Shown here: positions 50,656 through 59,493 of the stretch, one piece after another
Layout: each line of letters starts with the position of its first letter
Numbering within the stretch: the first letter of the stretch is position 1
Assembly (NCBI RefSeq): GCF_900188005.1
Contig: NZ_FZNR01000007.1
Span: 248,001 to 312,000 of the forward strand
From: Actinoplanes regularis
GTDB lineage: Bacteria > Actinomycetota > Actinomycetes > Mycobacteriales > Micromonosporaceae
Reading direction: 5' to 3'
Length of the DNA stretch: 64,000 nt
Made by a program: the position numbers and the translations under genes
The notes under the pieces: model-generated
The model's database searches: none
Told to the model about the DNA's origin: nothing
What the model saw: only the letters and a program-made list of their open reading frames with translations

Positions 50656-51369
50656 ATGAACATGATGAGGCATATGTTCGCGCTGGTCGGCGTGGGTGTC
50701 GCCGCCGGCGCGATGATCGGTATGGGCCCGGCGCAAGCCGATCCGTCGGTCGGCCGACCGGCCTCCGGCCAGGCGTCGCACTCCCGCGACTTCGTGATCG
50801 GCTACTACGACACCAAACGGTCCTGTGAGGAGGCCGGCTCGGCCGGCCAGTGGTACAGCGCCTGGGAAGACTACGACTGCGACCCGGTCCGCGTCGGCTG
50901 GCGCGGCCGGCTGTTCCAGCTGATCGTCGACGAGGGCGACTGGTTGGGTGCCGGCGGGCCGTGGCCGAGTGGCTGGCCGTACCGGACGGACTATCCGAGC
51001 GGGCTGATGAGCGTCGACGACGGACTGGAGCCGCAGGTCCGGCCGACCGTCCTGTCGCCGATCAGCCGGCCTGCCGGGTTGTCGCCGATCAACCAGGCCG
51101 CTGGTTTGCCGTCGGTCGGCCGGCCTGCCGGTCTGTCGCCGGTCGACCGGCCCGTTGGCTCGTCGCATGCCAGGCCGGCCGGTTCGCCGACGCACAACAG
51201 GCCGGCCGGTTCGCCGACGCACAGCAAGCCGGCCGGTTCGCCGATGCACAGCGAGCCGGCCGTTTCGCCGCCACAGGGAAAGCCGGTCGGCGCTCGTCTC
51301 CCGGACCAGCCGGTGAAGGGAACCCCGCCGCGTGACAATTCCGGCGGGACGTTCTGGCCGGTGCCGTAG
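50656..51369 (+). CDS. Secreted hypothetical protein with nine-residue repeats
   Basis: A 237-aa protein with a signal peptide (MFALVGVGVAAGAMIGMGPAQA, cleavage after AQA expected). Residues about 46-92 form a small Cys/Trp domain (FVIGYYDTKRSCEEAG...YDCDPVRVGWRGRLFQLIV) with two cysteines likely to pair. From residue 132 to 220, nine-residue units such as GLSPISRPA and GSPTHNRPA repeat about ten times. The end is GTFWPVP. The domain is not one I recognise. The Pro-rich repeats suggest a cell-wall-spanning or flexible stalk. Confidence 0.75.
   Translation: MNMMRHMFALVGVGVAAGAMIGMGPAQADPSVGRPASGQASHSRDFVIGYYDTKRSCEEAGSAGQWYSAWEDYDCDPVRVGWRGRLFQLIVDEGDWLGAGGPWPSGWPYRTDYPSGLMSVDDGLEPQVRPTVLSPISRPAGLSPINQAAGLPSVGRPAGLSPVDRPVGSSHARPAGSPTHNRPAGSPTHSKPAGSPMHSEPAVSPPQGKPVGARLPDQPVKGTPPRDNSGGTFWPVP
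51049..51315 (+). repeat. 27-bp coding repeat in the secreted protein gene
   Basis: About ten 27-bp (nine-codon) units of the form GLSPxxRPA grading into GSPTHxxPA. The units at about 51180-51255 are the most alike in DNA; outer copies are diverged and one is eight residues long. Confidence 0.8.
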
Positions 51370-53754: not shown

Positions 53755-56700
53755 CTACGTGGTAGCGGGGTCCTCCTGGCTGGAACCGCCGTTGGAGCGG
53801 TGCGGGCGGCTCGGGTTGGGGGTGTGGTCGGCGAGCGTCACCGGCCGCCGGTCCGGCGCCGGTGACTTTCCGCCCAACATGTCGTCGAGGCTCTGCGGGC
53901 GGGGCTGCGTCGGGTTGCCGTGCAGCCATTCGTCCAGCGTCTGCGGCCGCCTTGCCGGCACCGAACTCACCGGCACCGAGCTGGTCGGCGCTGAGCCGGT
54001 CGGGACCGAGTTGGTTGAGACCGAGTTGGTCGGCACTGAGTCGGTTGGGACCGAGCTGGTCGGGACCGAGTTGGTCGGGACCGAGTTGGTCGGCACCGAG
54101 TTCGTCGGCACCGAGTTCGTCGGCACTGAGTCGGTCGGGACTGAGCTGGTTGGGATCGAGTTGGTCGGCACCGAGTTCCGCGGCACTGCGCTGGTCGGGA
54201 CCGAGTTGGTTGGGACCGAGTTGGTTGGGACTGGACTTGCCGGAGACAGGTCGTCCAGCGGCTTCGGCCGTTGTGGCGTGTCGCCAAGGAGCGGTTGGGC
54301 CGATTCCTTCGGTTTGTGGATGGATCCGGTGGCCTGCGTCGGGATGGCCGGCTCTTCGGCTGGGGCAGGCCGGGAGCGGCGGGGTGGCTTGGGGAAGTCA
54401 CCCAAGGTCGCCGGACGGCTCGAGCGTGCGGCGGGAACCTCCAGCGGCTGCGGGTGGTCCCGCTCGGTGGACCTGCCACCGAGCCAGTCGTCGAGGGTTT
54501 GCGGCCGGCGACCGCTCGGTTCCTTCGTGGAGACTGGGCCCATCGCGGAGATCGGTTCGTTTACGGAGGTCGGCGTCGTTGCGGAGGCCGGTTCGTTTCC
54601 GGGAGTCGGCGTCGGTGCGGAGGCCGGCTCGTTTGCGGAAACCTGCGTCGGTGCGGAGGCCGGTTCGTTTGCGGGAGTCGGCGTCGTTGCGGAGACCGGA
54701 TCGCTCGCGGAGAGCGGTTCCTTCGCGGAGGCCGGTTCTGGACTCATCGTGACGGCCGGTTCCGGGGTGCTCGGAGCGGGCGTTGGGTCTGCCAGGCCGG
54801 TCAGCCAGGTGAAGTCCGAATCGGCGGTCGTGGTGGGTGTGCCGGGGCCACCGACGATTCCGGCGATTCGGGGGTCGGACATCCAGGTGAACGAGTCCGC
54901 GACCGCGGCCGGGATCACCCCGACCGGTGAACCCGCCATTGCCGTGGCGTGCTCCACGACGTCAGGCTCCGCACCCGTGGGCTCGTCAACATCCGGCTCC
55001 GCAAGTGTGGGCTCGTCAACGTCCGGCTCCGCAGCGGGTTCGGCAACGTCCGGTTCTGTTGCGGGCGCGGCTGCTTCCGGTTCGGCGGTCGCGGGCTTTG
55101 TTGCGGGCTCGACAACATCCGGTTCTGCTGTTGCGGGCGCGGCTGCTTCCGGCTCTGCTGCCGCAAGCTCTGCTGTGGGCTTGACAACTTCCGGCTCTGC
55201 AGCGGGCTTGGCTGCTTCCGGTTCTGCTGTCGCGGGTTCTGCTACGGGCTCGACAACTTGCGGTGATGCTGTGGGCTCGTCAACTTCCGGCTTCGCAAGC
55301 GTGGGCTCGACAACGTCGGATTCCGCCGTCGCGGGTTCTGGTGCCGGCTCGGCTGCTTCGGGTTCGGCTGGTGTTGGTTCTGTTGTTTCCGGCTTGGCGG
55401 GGGAGTGCTCCGGGGCTGCTTCGGGCGTCGCGACGACGTGTTCTGGCAGCTCTGAGATCGGGTGGGCAGCGACGTCCGGTGTCGCCTTGCTCTGGACCTC
55501 GTCGGCCTCGGGCGCTTCGTGATCCGGGATCGACGAGGGCCGGGCGTGGGCCTCCGGCTCAGGGAGGCCGGCGGTCACTGTCTCGGCTTCTGGGGCCGGG
55601 GCCACCTCGATCTTCGGCTCGTCCGCTGTCGTCGGCGCGGCGGAGGACGTTCCGGCGGGAGCTTCAGTATCCGTCTCGGTTTGGTCGCTGGAGATCACCG
55701 GGAGGAGCTCGGTGACGTCGGTGCCGACTCCGGTCGACGAGGTTTGACCGGAAACGATCTCCTCGCCGTCGGACGACTCGCCGGGATCGGCGATCGCTGC
55801 GGCGCCCACGGAAGAACCAGCGGTGTCGATTGTGTCCGCGGAGTCCGGAATGGAGTCAGCCGGATTAGTGTCAGCCAGATCGGTTTCGGCGGTGCCGGTG
55901 TCAGCCAGATCGGTTTCGGCGGTGCCGGTGTCAGCCAGATCGGTTTCGGTGCTGTCGGTGCCGGTGTCTGGCGGATCGGTTTCGGCGGTGCCGGTGTCTG
56001 GCGGATCGGTTTCGGCGGTGCCGGAGTCTGCTGGATCGGTTTCGGCGGTGGCCGTGTCTGCTGGATCGGTTTCGGTGGTGCCGGTGTCTGCCAGATCGGT
56101 TTCGGTGGTGTCGGTGTCTGCTGGATCGGTTTCGGCGGTGGCCGTGTCTGCCGGATCGGCTTCGGTGGTGTTGGAGTCGGCCGGGCCGGAGTCGGTGGTG
56201 GATTCCGGGTCGGGGGACTCAGCGCTGGCGGGGGAGTCGGACGACTCCGGTTCCAAGGCGATGATGGCGGTCTCCTCCGGAGTGGTGACCAGGGAATCGT
56301 CGTCGTCCTTGACCACCGGCAGGATCGCCGTGGCGTCATCGGAGCCGTCGACGGACAGATGAGCGGCAGCAGCCGCGTGATCCAGGATCTCGGTACCGGC
56401 GCCCGCCGTCGTCTCGGAAGGCTGCTCGCCGGCGGTCGTACCGGAAACGCTCTCCTCGCCCGCGTGCTCCGCGAGGCCGGCCTTCTCCTGGAGGCGCCGC
56501 AGCGGCCCCGGTGCCCACCACGCCGCGTCGCCCAGCAGGGCGAGAACGGCCGGCACCAGCAGCATCCGGACCACCGTCGCGTCCAGTACCAGGGCGATGA
56601 TCATGCCGACGCCGACGAAGCGCATGGTGGTGACCGTGGAGAGGGCGAACGCGCCGGTCACCACGATGAGCAGCAGCGCGGCCGCGCTGATCACCCGGCC

Positions 56701-58566
56701 GGTGCGGGTCAGGCCGGTGGTGACCGCCTCGGCCGTGGTCGCGCCCTTGACGCGCGCCTCGACCATCCGGGAGAGCAGGAAGACCTCGTAGTCGGTGGAG
56801 AGGCCGAAGACCACGGCCGCCATCAGCACCACGATGCCGGCTTCGAGCGGGGCGGGTGTGACGTGCAGCAGGCCGGCACCGTGTCCCTGCTGGAAGAGCC
56901 AGACGAGCAGGCCGAAGGTGGCGCTGAGGCTGAGGCCGCTCATCAGCACCGCCTTGATCGGCAGCAGGACGGAGCCGAAGGCGAGGAACATCAGCAGCAG
57001 GGTGGCGCCGGTGAGCAGCCCGATCATCAGCGGGAGCCGGTCGGCGATCGCGTCCAGGCTGTCCACGTTGCGGGCGGTGACGCCGCCGACCAGGACCTCG
57101 GTCCCGGCCGGCGGTTCGCTGGTGCGGAGGTCGTCGACGACCTGGCGGGCCGCCGGGCTGAACGAGTCGGTGCTGGTGAGGGCGGCGTTGAGGACGGTGA
57201 CGTTCGCGCCGGCGCCGGCCGGGGTGACTGCGGCCACGCCGGGGATCTTGGCGATCTCGGCGGCGAAGGCCTTGGCGCCGGCCGCCGGTCCGCGCACGAC
57301 GACCTGCACGCCGTCGCTGCTGAACTGGGGGTACGACGTCTTGAGCGTCTCCACCGCGACCCGTGACGGATCGCCGGCGGGCAGCACCCGCTCGTCGTTC
57401 TGGCCGAACCCGACGTCCTTGATCGGCAGCGCGAGCACGATCAGCCCGGCGAGGATCGGGATCGCCACCACGACCGGCCGGCGCAGCACGAAGCCGGAGA
57501 GCCGGCGCCAGCCGCCACCTTCCCGAGCGCGTCCGCCGAACGGCAGGCGGATCGGGAGCTTGTCGACGCGCGGGCCGAGGATGGCCAGGATCGCCGGGAG
57601 CAGGGTGAGGGAGAGCAGCATGGCGAGGAAGACGGCGGCGAGGCCGCCGTACGCCAAAGATTTGAGGAAGCCCTGCGGGAAGAGGAGCAGGCCGGCGAGG
57701 GCGGTCATCAGCAGGGTCGCGGAGAAGAGCACGGTACGGCCGGCGGTCCCGACGGTGCGGCGCACGGCCTCCGCCGGATCGTGCCCGGCGGCCTGCTCCT
57801 CCCGGAACCGGCCGACCATGAACAGGCCGTAGTCGATCGCCATGCCCAGGCCGAGCAGGCTGGCCACGTTGACGGCGAACGAGTTGACGTCGTGTCCGAG
57901 CGCGACGGCGTGCAGCACGCCCAGGGAACCGAGCACCGCGCATCCGCCGACGAGCACCGGCAGGGACGCGGCGACCAGCGAGCCGAAGATCAGCAGGAGC
58001 AGGACCAGGACGATCGGCATCGAGATCAGCTCGGCCGAGGCGAGGTCGTCGGTGGAGCGCTGGTTGGAGGTGTGCGCGAGCGGCGCGCCGCCGGCCAGCT
58101 GGACGGTGGCGCCGTCGACGGCGAACCGGTCCTCGATCTCGCCGTACGCCTCGAGCTTGGCGGCATCGTCCGTGCCGGCCAGGGTGATGATCGCGACCGC
58201 GCTGGATTTGTCCTTCGCGGCGTAGGCCGGGTTCTTCTTGTCCCAGTACGAGGTGGTCGCCGTCACCGCCGTCGCGGGCAGCGCGGCGAGCCGCTCCCTG
58301 ATCTGCCCGGTGAGCGCGGCGTCGTTGATGGTGCCGCCGGAGGCCGGTGTGTAGATCGCGATGACGTCGGCGCCCTGGCCGCCGACCGCCTCGGCCACCG
58401 CGTCGGCGGCGCGCGCCGACTCGCTCGCGGGATCGCCGTAGCCACCCTCGGTGAGCTGTCCGAAAACGCCCATCCCCCAGACGCCGGCGCCGAGCACCGC
58501 CACGAGCGTGACGATCAGCACCGGCCACCGGAAGCGGGCGACCCGCGATCCCCAGCCCGCGAACAC
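53755..58566 (-). CDS. MmpL-type RND transporter with an 890-residue repetitive cytoplasmic-type tail
   Basis: A 1603-aa protein. Residues 1-712 are an MMPL RND permease with about 12 membrane segments and two large extracellular loops. The proton-relay pairs are present: AIDYGLFMVGRF (about 241) and STDYEVFLLSRM (about 590). The tail (712-1603) is disordered and repeat-rich: ETDPADTGTA-like decapeptides (799-902), Glu/Pro/Ala/Val repeats (1055-1205), NEPASAPTPTP units (1269-1345), VPTNS pentapeptides (1443-1530), and six copies of an RPxTLDDWLGG-like motif. Ordinary MmpL proteins have short or 200-300-residue tails. GTG 58566 has AAGGGGA upstream. Lipid export is the likely role. Confidence 0.87.
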   Translation of the reverse strand: MFAGWGSRVARFRWPVLIVTLVAVLGAGVWGMGVFGQLTEGGYGDPASESARAADAVAEAVGGQGADVIAIYTPASGGTINDAALTGQIRERLAALPATAVTATTSYWDKKNPAYAAKDKSSAVAIITLAGTDDAAKLEAYGEIEDRFAVDGATVQLAGGAPLAHTSNQRSTDDLASAELISMPIVLVLLLLIFGSLVAASLPVLVGGCAVLGSLGVLHAVALGHDVNSFAVNVASLLGLGMAIDYGLFMVGRFREEQAAGHDPAEAVRRTVGTAGRTVLFSATLLMTALAGLLLFPQGFLKSLAYGGLAAVFLAMLLSLTLLPAILAILGPRVDKLPIRLPFGGRAREGGGWRRLSGFVLRRPVVVAIPILAGLIVLALPIKDVGFGQNDERVLPAGDPSRVAVETLKTSYPQFSSDGVQVVVRGPAAGAKAFAAEIAKIPGVAAVTPAGAGANVTVLNAALTSTDSFSPAARQVVDDLRTSEPPAGTEVLVGGVTARNVDSLDAIADRLPLMIGLLTGATLLLMFLAFGSVLLPIKAVLMSGLSLSATFGLLVWLFQQGHGAGLLHVTPAPLEAGIVVLMAAVVFGLSTDYEVFLLSRMVEARVKGATTAEAVTTGLTRTGRVISAAALLLIVVTGAFALSTVTTMRFVGVGMIIALVLDATVVRMLLVPAVLALLGDAAWWAPGPLRRLQEKAGLAEHAGEESVSGTTAGEQPSETTAGAGTEILDHAAAAAHLSVDGSDDATAILPVVKDDDDSLVTTPEETAIIALEPESSDSPASAESPDPESTTDSGPADSNTTEADPADTATAETDPADTDTTETDLADTGTTETDPADTATAETDPADSGTAETDPPDTGTAETDPPDTGTDSTETDLADTGTAETDLADTGTAETDLADTNPADSIPDSADTIDTAGSSVGAAAIADPGESSDGEEIVSGQTSSTGVGTDVTELLPVISSDQTETDTEAPAGTSSAAPTTADEPKIEVAPAPEAETVTAGLPEPEAHARPSSIPDHEAPEADEVQSKATPDVAAHPISELPEHVVATPEAAPEHSPAKPETTEPTPAEPEAAEPAPEPATAESDVVEPTLAKPEVDEPTASPQVVEPVAEPATAEPEAAKPAAEPEVVKPTAELAAAEPEAAAPATAEPDVVEPATKPATAEPEAAAPATEPDVAEPAAEPDVDEPTLAEPDVDEPTGAEPDVVEHATAMAGSPVGVIPAAVADSFTWMSDPRIAGIVGGPGTPTTTADSDFTWLTGLADPTPAPSTPEPAVTMSPEPASAKEPLSASDPVSATTPTPANEPASAPTQVSANEPASAPTPTPGNEPASATTPTSVNEPISAMGPVSTKEPSGRRPQTLDDWLGGRSTERDHPQPLEVPAARSSRPATLGDFPKPPRRSRPAPAEEPAIPTQATGSIHKPKESAQPLLGDTPQRPKPLDDLSPASPVPTNSVPTNSVPTSAVPRNSVPTNSIPTSSVPTDSVPTNSVPTNSVPTNSVPTNSVPTSSVPTDSVPTNSVSTNSVPTGSAPTSSVPVSSVPARRPQTLDEWLHGNPTQPRPQSLDDMLGGKSPAPDRRPVTLADHTPNPSRPHRSNGGSSQEDPATT
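53976..54238 (-). repeat. 15-bp (VPTNS) coding repeat in the MmpL gene
   Basis: About eighteen 15-bp units encoding VPTNS with variants VPTSS, VPTDS, IPTSS, APTSS and VSTNS. On the plus strand the unit reads GGGACCGAGTTGGTC and close relatives. Confidence 0.92.
55861..56170 (-). repeat. 30-bp (ETDPADTGTA) coding repeat in the MmpL gene
   Basis: About ten 30-bp units encoding decapeptides such as ETDLADTGTA and ETDPADTATA; two units carry PPDT and one has a two-residue insertion (DSTE). On the plus strand the unit reads GTGTCAGCCAGATCGGTTTC and close relatives. Confidence 0.92.
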
Positions 58567-58623: not shown

Positions 58624-59493
58624 TTAGAAAAGCGTCGCGGCTTGGAGAGCGACGCCACCGCAGTCCGAGGAGAAGGACTCGTCGGTGATCCACTCGATCG
58701 AGATCCGGCCGGGACCGGTGGCGCGATAGCTGATCGTGTATTTCGCGGTCTTCAACGCGTCGCCGTCCTCGACCAGTTCGGAGGTGATCGCCTTGTCGCC
58801 GGTGACGAGATCGCCGGTGCTGAGCTTGATTCTGAGCAGGCCCCGCCCGGCCGTGACGCCCAGGTAGAGCCGGAGTTTCCGCGGTTCCGGGGTGGCCGGC
58901 GCGGAGAGGGTGAAGCCGTTGTCGGCGCCGCAGGTGCGGATGCCGCTGGTGGTGCCGTCGTTGCCGGCCGCCGGGGTGCCGCCGCTCCAGCGGAACCGTT
59001 CCGGGCTGAGGGTGTGCCGCCGGCGCGGGGCGTCCGGGGTGCCCTCCAGGATGGCGAACCCGCCCGCGGCGCTCCGTTCCAGCGAGTACGTGCCGCCCTC
59101 GCCCCAGTGCACCCAGTCGATCTTGCCTTCGTGCGCGAGGTCGACCGAGTCCGGCACGGAACCCTGTTCGATGGTGATCGAGTTGATCGGCGCCGGGCTG
59201 GTCGAGACGGACGGGCTGGGCAGCGGGATCGGCACCTGGTCCAGGGTCGGGTCGGTGACCGAGCCGGTCACCGGGCCGGTGGCCGCGGGACGGTCGGAGC
59301 GGCTGACTCGGGCCACGATGCCCACCAGGACCACGGCGAGCACCCCGACCATGATCACCGCGGCCGGGCCCAGGTGCTCCCGCCAGGTCGGCTTGTTCGT
59401 CTTGAGCAGCACATCGGGCACCTCGGGGCGACGACGGCGCAACTGTTCTCCAACGATGCGGGGCGAAGATCGGACGGCAGCGGCTGAAACCAT
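58624..59493 (-). CDS. Single-pass membrane protein with extracytoplasmic beta domain
   Basis: A 289-aa protein. One hydrophobic helix (AAVIMVGVLAVVLVGIVA, about residues 44-61) follows a basic cytoplasmic part; a Pro/Ser/Thr linker leads to a beta-rich extracellular domain with DSVDLAHEGKIDWVHWGEGG and two cysteines (TCGADNG, SDCGG). The VDL...DWxHWG motif recurs in bacterial extracellular proteins of unknown function. It lies 57 bp upstream of the MmpL gene on the same strand and may form an operon with it. A GTG at 59409 with GAGGTG upstream is an alternative start, leaving a shorter cytoplasmic part. Confidence 0.7.
   Translation of the reverse strand: MVSAAAVRSSPRIVGEQLRRRRPEVPDVLLKTNKPTWREHLGPAAVIMVGVLAVVLVGIVARVSRSDRPAATGPVTGSVTDPTLDQVPIPLPSPSVSTSPAPINSITIEQGSVPDSVDLAHEGKIDWVHWGEGGTYSLERSAAGGFAILEGTPDAPRRRHTLSPERFRWSGGTPAAGNDGTTSGIRTCGADNGFTLSAPATPEPRKLRLYLGVTAGRGLLRIKLSTGDLVTGDKAITSELVEDGDALKTAKYTISYRATGPGRISIEWITDESFSSDCGGVALQAATLF

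Follow-up and report, generated by a model that had tools for sequence, protein, structure and literature searches.

A short, probably helix-capped motif repeated in the tail of an MmpL3-like transporter of Actinoplanes: a putative docking platform

Introduction

The closest described system to the one analysed here is the mycobacterial transporter MmpL3. A mycobacterial strain with tailless MmpL3 is viable; according to excerpts of the study concerned, its transporter gathers less sharply at poles and septa and interacts less with itself (PMC6656915). The same excerpts report that CrgA does not act through the MmpL3 tail and leave the recruiter unsettled (PMC6656915). Wag31 is named as a possible recruiter in a review, whose excerpts also describe the mycobacterial tail as phosphorylated under the control of PknA and PknB (PMC10171966).

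The window (the whole 64-kb stretch of DNA that was analysed, from Actinoplanes regularis) encodes a protein that resembles mycobacterial MmpL3 in having a related transporter core and a long disordered tail. However, it scores under the cutoff of the MmpL3 equivalog family, and its tail sequence is unlike that of MmpL3. Actinoplanes is not known to have mycolic acids.

An MmpL3-like transporter with a long tail

53755..58566, minus strand: MmpL3-like MMPL/RND transporter gene, a single ORF of 1603 aa with a C-terminal tail of ~900 aa
56467..56508, minus strand: juxtamembrane GPLRRLQEKAGLAE, common to tailless relatives; the tail starts directly after it

Residues 1 to ~715 form an MMPL transporter (PF03176, 246.6 bits in two stretches, above the Pfam gathering cutoff of 20.5). 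The score for NF052608, the MmpL3 equivalog for trehalose monomycolate exporters, was 642.2 bits and thus below its cutoff of 1400. Nine of the best solved relatives of the core are MmpL3 entries or MmpL3 constructs. By analogy with MmpL3, the tail of ~900 aa, which terminates in ...RRPVTLADHTPNPSRPHRSNGGSSQEDPATT, is taken as cytosolic.

Named loci with long matches to the transporter locus come from A. cyaneus, A. liguriensis, and A. siamensis. Relatives of the gene were found in all 60 same-genus genomes when paralogues are counted, and a close orthologue, whole or in pieces, in 58 of them; in the two others (G090 and G102) the sole relative is 46% identical. Just upstream of the transporter and on the same strand lies a gene for a 289-aa protein with one likely span (58624-59493, minus strand). 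It was present in 8/8 Actinoplanes loci compared and 0/2 outgroup loci, and a search of Pfam and NCBIfam gave no match. Since it also adjoins transporters with zero motif copies (L175, L180), it does not track the motif described below. At 50656-51369 on the plus strand lies an ORF of 237 aa that contains a repeated stretch (RPAGLSP, KPAGSP); of 10 loci compared, 4 have a partial match to it.

Six copies of a short motif

The initial annotation had proposed that a motif of the RPxTLDDWLGG type occurs six times in the tail. All six copies lie in the frame of the 1603-aa minus-strand ORF, about where they had been placed:

54475..54510, minus strand: copy 1, RRPQTLDDWLGG; pN/pS 0.078 (110 codon comparisons only); three modelled helical residues, pLDDT ~49
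54391..54417, minus strand: copy 2, RPATLGDFP; identity 0.77; pN/pS 0.134; no modelled helix
54244..54270, minus strand: copy 3, RPKPLDDLS; identity 0.21; pN/pS 0.747; no modelled helix
53917..53952, minus strand: copy 4, RRPQTLDEWLHG; identity 1.00; pN/pS 0.014; model helix 215-220, block pLDDT 84
53869..53901, minus strand: copy 5, RPQSLDDMLGG; identity 0.77; pN/pS 0.325; model helix 231-234
53824..53850, minus strand: copy 6, RRPVTLADH, the C-terminal copy; identity 0.78; pN/pS 0.218; model helix 249-252

The coordinates proposed earlier were about right, those of copy 1 (54481-54513) being a few bases off. The core of the proposed consensus also holds and is given more exactly as RPx[T/S/D]Lx[D/E]; the W at position 8 is one of several residues found there. 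When the window was scanned in all six frames for RP.[TSD]L.[DE], there were 5 matches, all within the transporter tail; the sixth copy was missed because RPKPLDDL has P at position 4. The RPQTLDEWL of copy 4 is identical across 10 aligned tails, and both motif-rich clades of the genus (see below) have a [TS]LAD copy close to the C-terminus.

The copies exceed what composition predicts. The 916-aa tail has 6 matches to RP.[TSPDE]L.[DE], whereas 2000 shuffles of it averaged 0.014 and never gave more than 1. Nineteen further tails, hand-picked among motif-bearing ones and shuffled likewise, hold 1 to 12 copies, and none of their shuffle means exceeds 0.054. When all four-residue gapped patterns were counted without supervision in the 42 of 57 Actinoplanes tails longer than 400 aa, pieces of the motif came out on top (RR..TL, RP..L.D, and R..TL.D). 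Such patterns occur in 41/42 of these tails, where shuffles expect 0.25-0.5; the only tail of this length without RP..L.D is L146. Left out of the pattern and profile counts were L071, L076, and L089 (cut by contig ends), the identical L058, and L149-L153 and L156 from other genera.

Conservation of the motif against its linkers

Among 10 close orthologues, mean identity was 0.665 at motif residues versus 0.247 in the linkers of the motif zone, and none of 10,000 random placements matched the conservation of the motif. Codon comparison gave a pN/pS of 0.227 for the six copies pooled; the linkers reached 0.737 and the tail ahead of the first motif 0.748. The low ratios show that the annotated frame is the coding frame. 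As is expected of a short linear motif, five of the six copies are conserved above the disordered linker. The earlier claim of a conserved core amid drifting linkers is thus borne out for these five in close orthologues but not for RPKPLDDL (identity 0.21, pN/pS 0.75); given its ratio, copy 3 is on this comparison a species-specific or decayed copy, not a conserved one. The initial annotation had named orthologues that lack the motif, or that keep it no better than the linkers, as grounds for giving up its reading. This comparison was run, and the motif came through it in identity, in pN/pS, and in its presence in 41/42 tails. With this result, docking to a partner becomes the best reading of the motif.

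The tail also contains tandem DNA repeats, the first of which separates two motif copies:

53971..54231, minus strand: 15-base tandem array (VPTNS linker) between motif copies 3 and 4

Three unrelated arrays were found in total, at 53971-54231 (15 bases), 54545-54738 (36/72), and 55868-56184 (30), and such arrays are the likely source of the range in tail length across the genus, from ~100 to 1600 residues. These arrays, together with a run of near-identical RRPQTLDDVAP units in the tail of G192 (L061), would suit a scenario in which tandem duplication and homogenisation within a low-complexity tail produced the motif copies as a mere side effect. This scenario is highly improbable: the two best copies differ at 5/27 bases with one residue changed and so are no fresh DNA duplication, and copies within a gene differ at synonymous sites. 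Moreover, a pN/pS of 0.23 versus 0.74 contradicts drift for five of the six copies, and the motif is kept across divergent species and present in another gene. Drift may hold for RPKPLDDL. About 70 kb from the transporter gene of G192, a further locus (L305) resembles tail DNA and has motif pieces in two frames; by eye, it looks like a duplicated, decayed tail fragment.

Origin and spread within the genus

Eight transporter orthologues from other genera of the family share 65-69% identity with the window protein. Seven of them stop shortly past the core; in the five that were measured, 28 to 73 residues follow it. The remaining one, from G028 (L150), has a tail of 624 residues, and the whole tail is without RP..L. 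In Actinoplanes, 57 tails were compared, with L077 and L146 fetched whole and giving 7 and 0 copies, respectively. Eleven tails have no copy, and 5 have one (RPRDLGDLG, RPRDLSELA, or RPESLSDLG). Another 18 (clade A) have 4-5 copies in near-fixed order, such as RPATLADQ, RPADLGDHL, RPADLAQY, RPATLADQ. The remaining 23, the window's among them, have 4-12 copies and also bear a W copy. The zero-copy L146 contains two near-misses, RPTANLADHL and RPTVDLADRR, each one residue longer than the motif, which are perhaps its forerunners. Judged from this distribution, the motif arose inside Actinoplanes: the sampled other genera and 11 basal Actinoplanes have zero copies, followed by one copy and then by 4-12.

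At the DNA level, the strict pattern RPx[TS]LD[DE]WL was searched for in 150 genomes of the family, 15 of them Actinoplanes. It matched 8, every one an Actinoplanes genome; its reversed control matched 4 other genomes. The transporter-type motif array was seen in one genus only.

Position profile and predicted helices

A position profile with only RP..L fixed gave 279 occurrences in 47 of the 57 tails; as they come from related sequences, they are not independent events. Position 4 is T (156), D (59), S (55), or N (3) in 273/279 against a background of 28%, and E is never found there even though it makes up 8.2% of the tails. Position 7 is D, E, or Q in 267/279, and position 8 is most often W (67), H (63), L (53), or Q (30). 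Such a profile at positions 4 and 7 is that of a helix N-cap with a capping box.

The final 274 residues were modelled with AlphaFold from 3 sequences (mean pLDDT 52, pTM 0.18), and the model was used for helix starts only. Its helical residues are found only at 29-31, 215-220, 231-234, and 249-252, and each modelled helix starts at the L right after the T/S of copies 1, 4, 5, and 6. Around copy 4 the confidence was 84; it was ~64 for both copy 5 and copy 6 and ~49 for copy 1. In this low-confidence model, copies 2 and 3 have no helix. The motif thus resembles known helix-capped short linear motifs: it is short, stands in a disordered-looking context, is kept relative to its linkers, occurs in another protein, and is predicted to form one helical turn. 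The strings TLDDWL, TLDEWL, RPATLAD, RPATLGD, RPQTLD, RPADLGDH, and RPADLADH had no mention in the literature searched.

The same two positions could also mark a phosphosite, in which a Ser/Thr kinase phosphorylates T4 or S4 and an FHA domain reads pT-x-x-D. FHA domains prefer pT-x-x-D, and the TLxD of the motif fits this spacing; T or S stands at position 4 in 211/279 copies with D/E/Q at +3 in 267/279. In the mycobacterial protein, tail phosphorylation under PknA/PknB is described in the excerpted review (PMC10171966). However, a Thr/Ser at position 4 is not invariant: D replaces it in 59/279 copies and E never does, which is the profile of a helix cap and not of a phosphomimetic. Two other elements of the tail look, by the preference of such kinases, more like kinase sites:

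56311..56340, minus strand: DDATAILPVV, one of two acidic-TxxLPV elements, from the orthologue alignment and in the ORF frame
55693..55722, minus strand: TDVTELLPVI, the second acidic-TxxLPV element, with similar elements in orthologues

Presumably these two resemble kinase or FHA sites. Acidic-TxxLP elements recur in other Actinoplanes tails. Phosphorylation of the motif itself is therefore rather improbable, and the sequence profile and the model together are best read as a helix cap at position 4.

Predicted short helices and the RRP...W-L composition of part of the copies could alternatively point to membrane contact, where W/L helices with arginines would insert shallowly in the inner leaflet and reel in the tail. 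We consider this very unlikely, as many copies are without an aromatic or second hydrophobic residue (ADQP, GDLP, ADHP) and acidic residues are found in all but a few.

The motif in other proteins

Twelve genomes were searched with a 12-column profile built from 60 of the 185 distinct copies. Its 36 strongest matches come from 10 genomes and all fall inside the transporter gene; the zero-copy G164 and the outgroup G037 gave background only (best E 0.25 and 0.045). One unannotated protein, which has an HLHMW element, recurs among the weaker matches in at least 7 of the 12 genomes. This HxH-type protein (CxxC, HLHMWF) was found at loci L306-L312 and L331 (in the A. regularis genome, L312 159-1376) and carries the motif in a variable tail; L312 had no match in Pfam or NCBIfam. 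Across 8 genomes, RP[AQ]TLGD[VM]Q in this tail has an identity of 0.97 versus 0.17 in the rest of the tail, with 7 of the 8 sequences found via the motif itself and the eighth (G163) by position. The 20 residues before and after the motif are also fairly conserved (0.60 and 0.50).

All 8 of these genomes carry motif-rich transporters, and the orthologue in G164, the only zero-copy genome checked, is without the motif. The motif-rich G168, G190, and G177 had no HxH-protein match among the matches listed, and the gene was found at 2 (G163, G164) of 10 chromosome ends fetched. The HxH protein is a candidate co-client of the same putative partner. Taken singly, motif copies in proteins other than the transporter do not rise above background (in the A. 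regularis genome, the two main ones have E 0.29 and 0.55); only their orthologues make them persuasive.

Several further carriers were noted. In the A. regularis genome, a DUF2206 membrane protein (L344 3571-6165, minus strand) has one full and two altered units in ~50 residues near its N-terminus (RPASLADQP, with RSASLADQP and RPADVLAEQ altered), and another protein (L340) has a single copy. A polysaccharide deacetylase of two clade-A genomes (L317, L319; Pfam match tested for L317) contains RRPESLADV near its N-terminus and, ahead of a likely span, PIESWL, an element that is also found in MmpL3-like tails of another family. In G164, a dynamin-like GTPase (L342 213-3866, minus strand) has KRPATLDDLAPLP in a long low-complexity N-terminal part; as G164 is a zero-copy genome, this copy counts against a strict link with the transporter copies. 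The motif segments of these other proteins would face the cytosol. As is typical of short linear motifs, other proteins encoded in the same genome, unrelated to the transporter, thus carry the motif too: one such carrier is conserved, and others occur in one or two genomes.

Further profile matches were judged to be chance. These were the DyP-like L316 and acetyltransferase-like L318, from context, the folded enzymes L322, L335, L336, and L337 (names by reading in all six), both L320 matches after their context was read, and L314, L315, L321, L323, L324, L338, L339, L341, and L343, whose frames are unlikely or short. DNA patterns in the A. regularis genome gave 6 matches (2 in the transporter, 4 elsewhere) versus 4 for reversed controls; the context of the four non-transporter matches was read, and none resembles such a tail. 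A second DNA pattern gave 6 matches versus 1 for the control in 7 genomes, one of them in a transporter tail. A BLAST search of 121 family genomes with a 68-aa motif-dense clade-A stretch found no second array (best E 0.0017); the search is insensitive, with 119/121 genomes matched at E<=1, which is background, and the window's own tail reaching a best E of 0.23.

The carriers outside the transporter also bear on self-association, in which the motifs would bind the same transporter (at its FTWMSDPR module, at its core, or on other tails) and so make it oligomerise or cluster. The excerpted mycobacterial study reports that tail truncation weakens MmpL3-MmpL3 interaction (PMC6656915), and the window tail holds a possible target in a second conserved module:

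54847..54918, minus strand: second conserved tail module VIPAAVADSFTWMSDPRIAGIVGG, from the orthologue alignment; pN/pS 0.103 for VADSFTWMSDPRIAGIVGG
54793..54822, minus strand: conserved DSDFTWLTGL, from the orthologue alignment

The module contains FTWMSDPRIAGIV and shares its tail with the motif copies. In the window, VIPAAVADSFTWMSDPRIAGIVGG is followed by DFTWL; several other clade-B tails read DPFAWRNDPRLA or similar. A DNA pattern for D.F.W..DPR matched 8/30 genus genomes (reversed control 1). However, D.?F.W.{0,4}DPR matches none of the 18 tails of clade A, which have 4-5 motifs each, so the module is no constant companion of the motif, and the motif is also found in the tail of the unrelated HxH protein. 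On balance, self-association is unlikely.

Tails of a probable mycobacterial family

For comparison, 50 MmpL3-like loci (L225-L274) were taken from another family of the order, that of G303, which we take to be Mycobacteriaceae in GTDB's sense. RP..L.[DE] was not seen in the tails of these 50 loci. Among their tails of at least 100 aa, 39/43 end in [ST][VTI]x[ED][LF][LIM] and 20/43 hold I[DE]xW[LMI], against a shuffle expectation of 0.005 of 43 each; both patterns were picked after the tails had been viewed. The C-terminal [ST][VTI]x[ED][LF][LIM] element is not found in the window tail. The elements of this other family also resemble capped helices with a hydrophobic face, a resemblance for which homology is not claimed, and their strings had no mention in the literature searched.

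Discussion

The tail is best read as a multivalent docking platform for a putative partner, which perhaps positions the transporter as the MmpL3 tail does; we assign this reading a probability of about 0.6. Each RPx[TSD]Lx[DE]-hydrophobic copy would fold into one to one-and-a-half turns of predicted helix on binding, with T, S, or D at position 4 capping the helix and the acidic position 7 closing the capping box. L5 and residues 8-9 (W-L, H-L, L-P, or Q-P) would form a sticky face. With several copies on free linkers, one transporter could bind several copies of the partner and so gain avidity. By analogy with the mycobacterial MmpL3 tail, the partner would most likely place the transporter at sites of envelope building, such as the hyphal tip or septum.

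The suggestion in the initial annotation of docking to a partner or a polymerising adaptor is thereby partly supported: docking accounts best for the conservation, the predicted short helices, and the unrelated carrier protein, but the partner was not found, and a polymerising adaptor is a candidate only. Against docking and positioning, the localisation analogy is drawn from a family that is not this one and whose tail motifs differ, relatives lacking the tail evidently function without it, and the structure model is weak (mean pLDDT 52 from 3 sequences, with copies 2 and 3 unhelical).

A broader and more speculative proposal, which we hold only tentatively, is a docking code of Actinoplanes' own. 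One cytosolic hub would bind RPx[TSD]Lx[DE] on several mostly envelope-related proteins, and copy number would determine the degree to which each is concentrated at the growth zone; in the tails of the mycobacterial family, analogous helix-capped motifs (SVxELL, IExWL) would serve this purpose. If true, the clients would be the MmpL3-like transporter (4-12 copies), the DUF2206 protein (a small array), the membrane-anchored polysaccharide deacetylase, and the HxH protein (one copy).

For the placement of MmpL3-type transporters at growth sites, the mycobacterial tail matters and the recruiter is left unsettled in the excerpted study (PMC6656915). In Actinoplanes, evolution would have split such a tail into sharp repeated peptides, stepwise from zero to twelve copies, and the question therefore becomes testable with a 12-residue bait (the motif peptide RRPQTLDEWLHGN) and natural variants from soil bacteria that are harmless. 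More generally, conservation against the drift of the linkers is a way to find docking motifs in the disordered tails of bacterial proteins.
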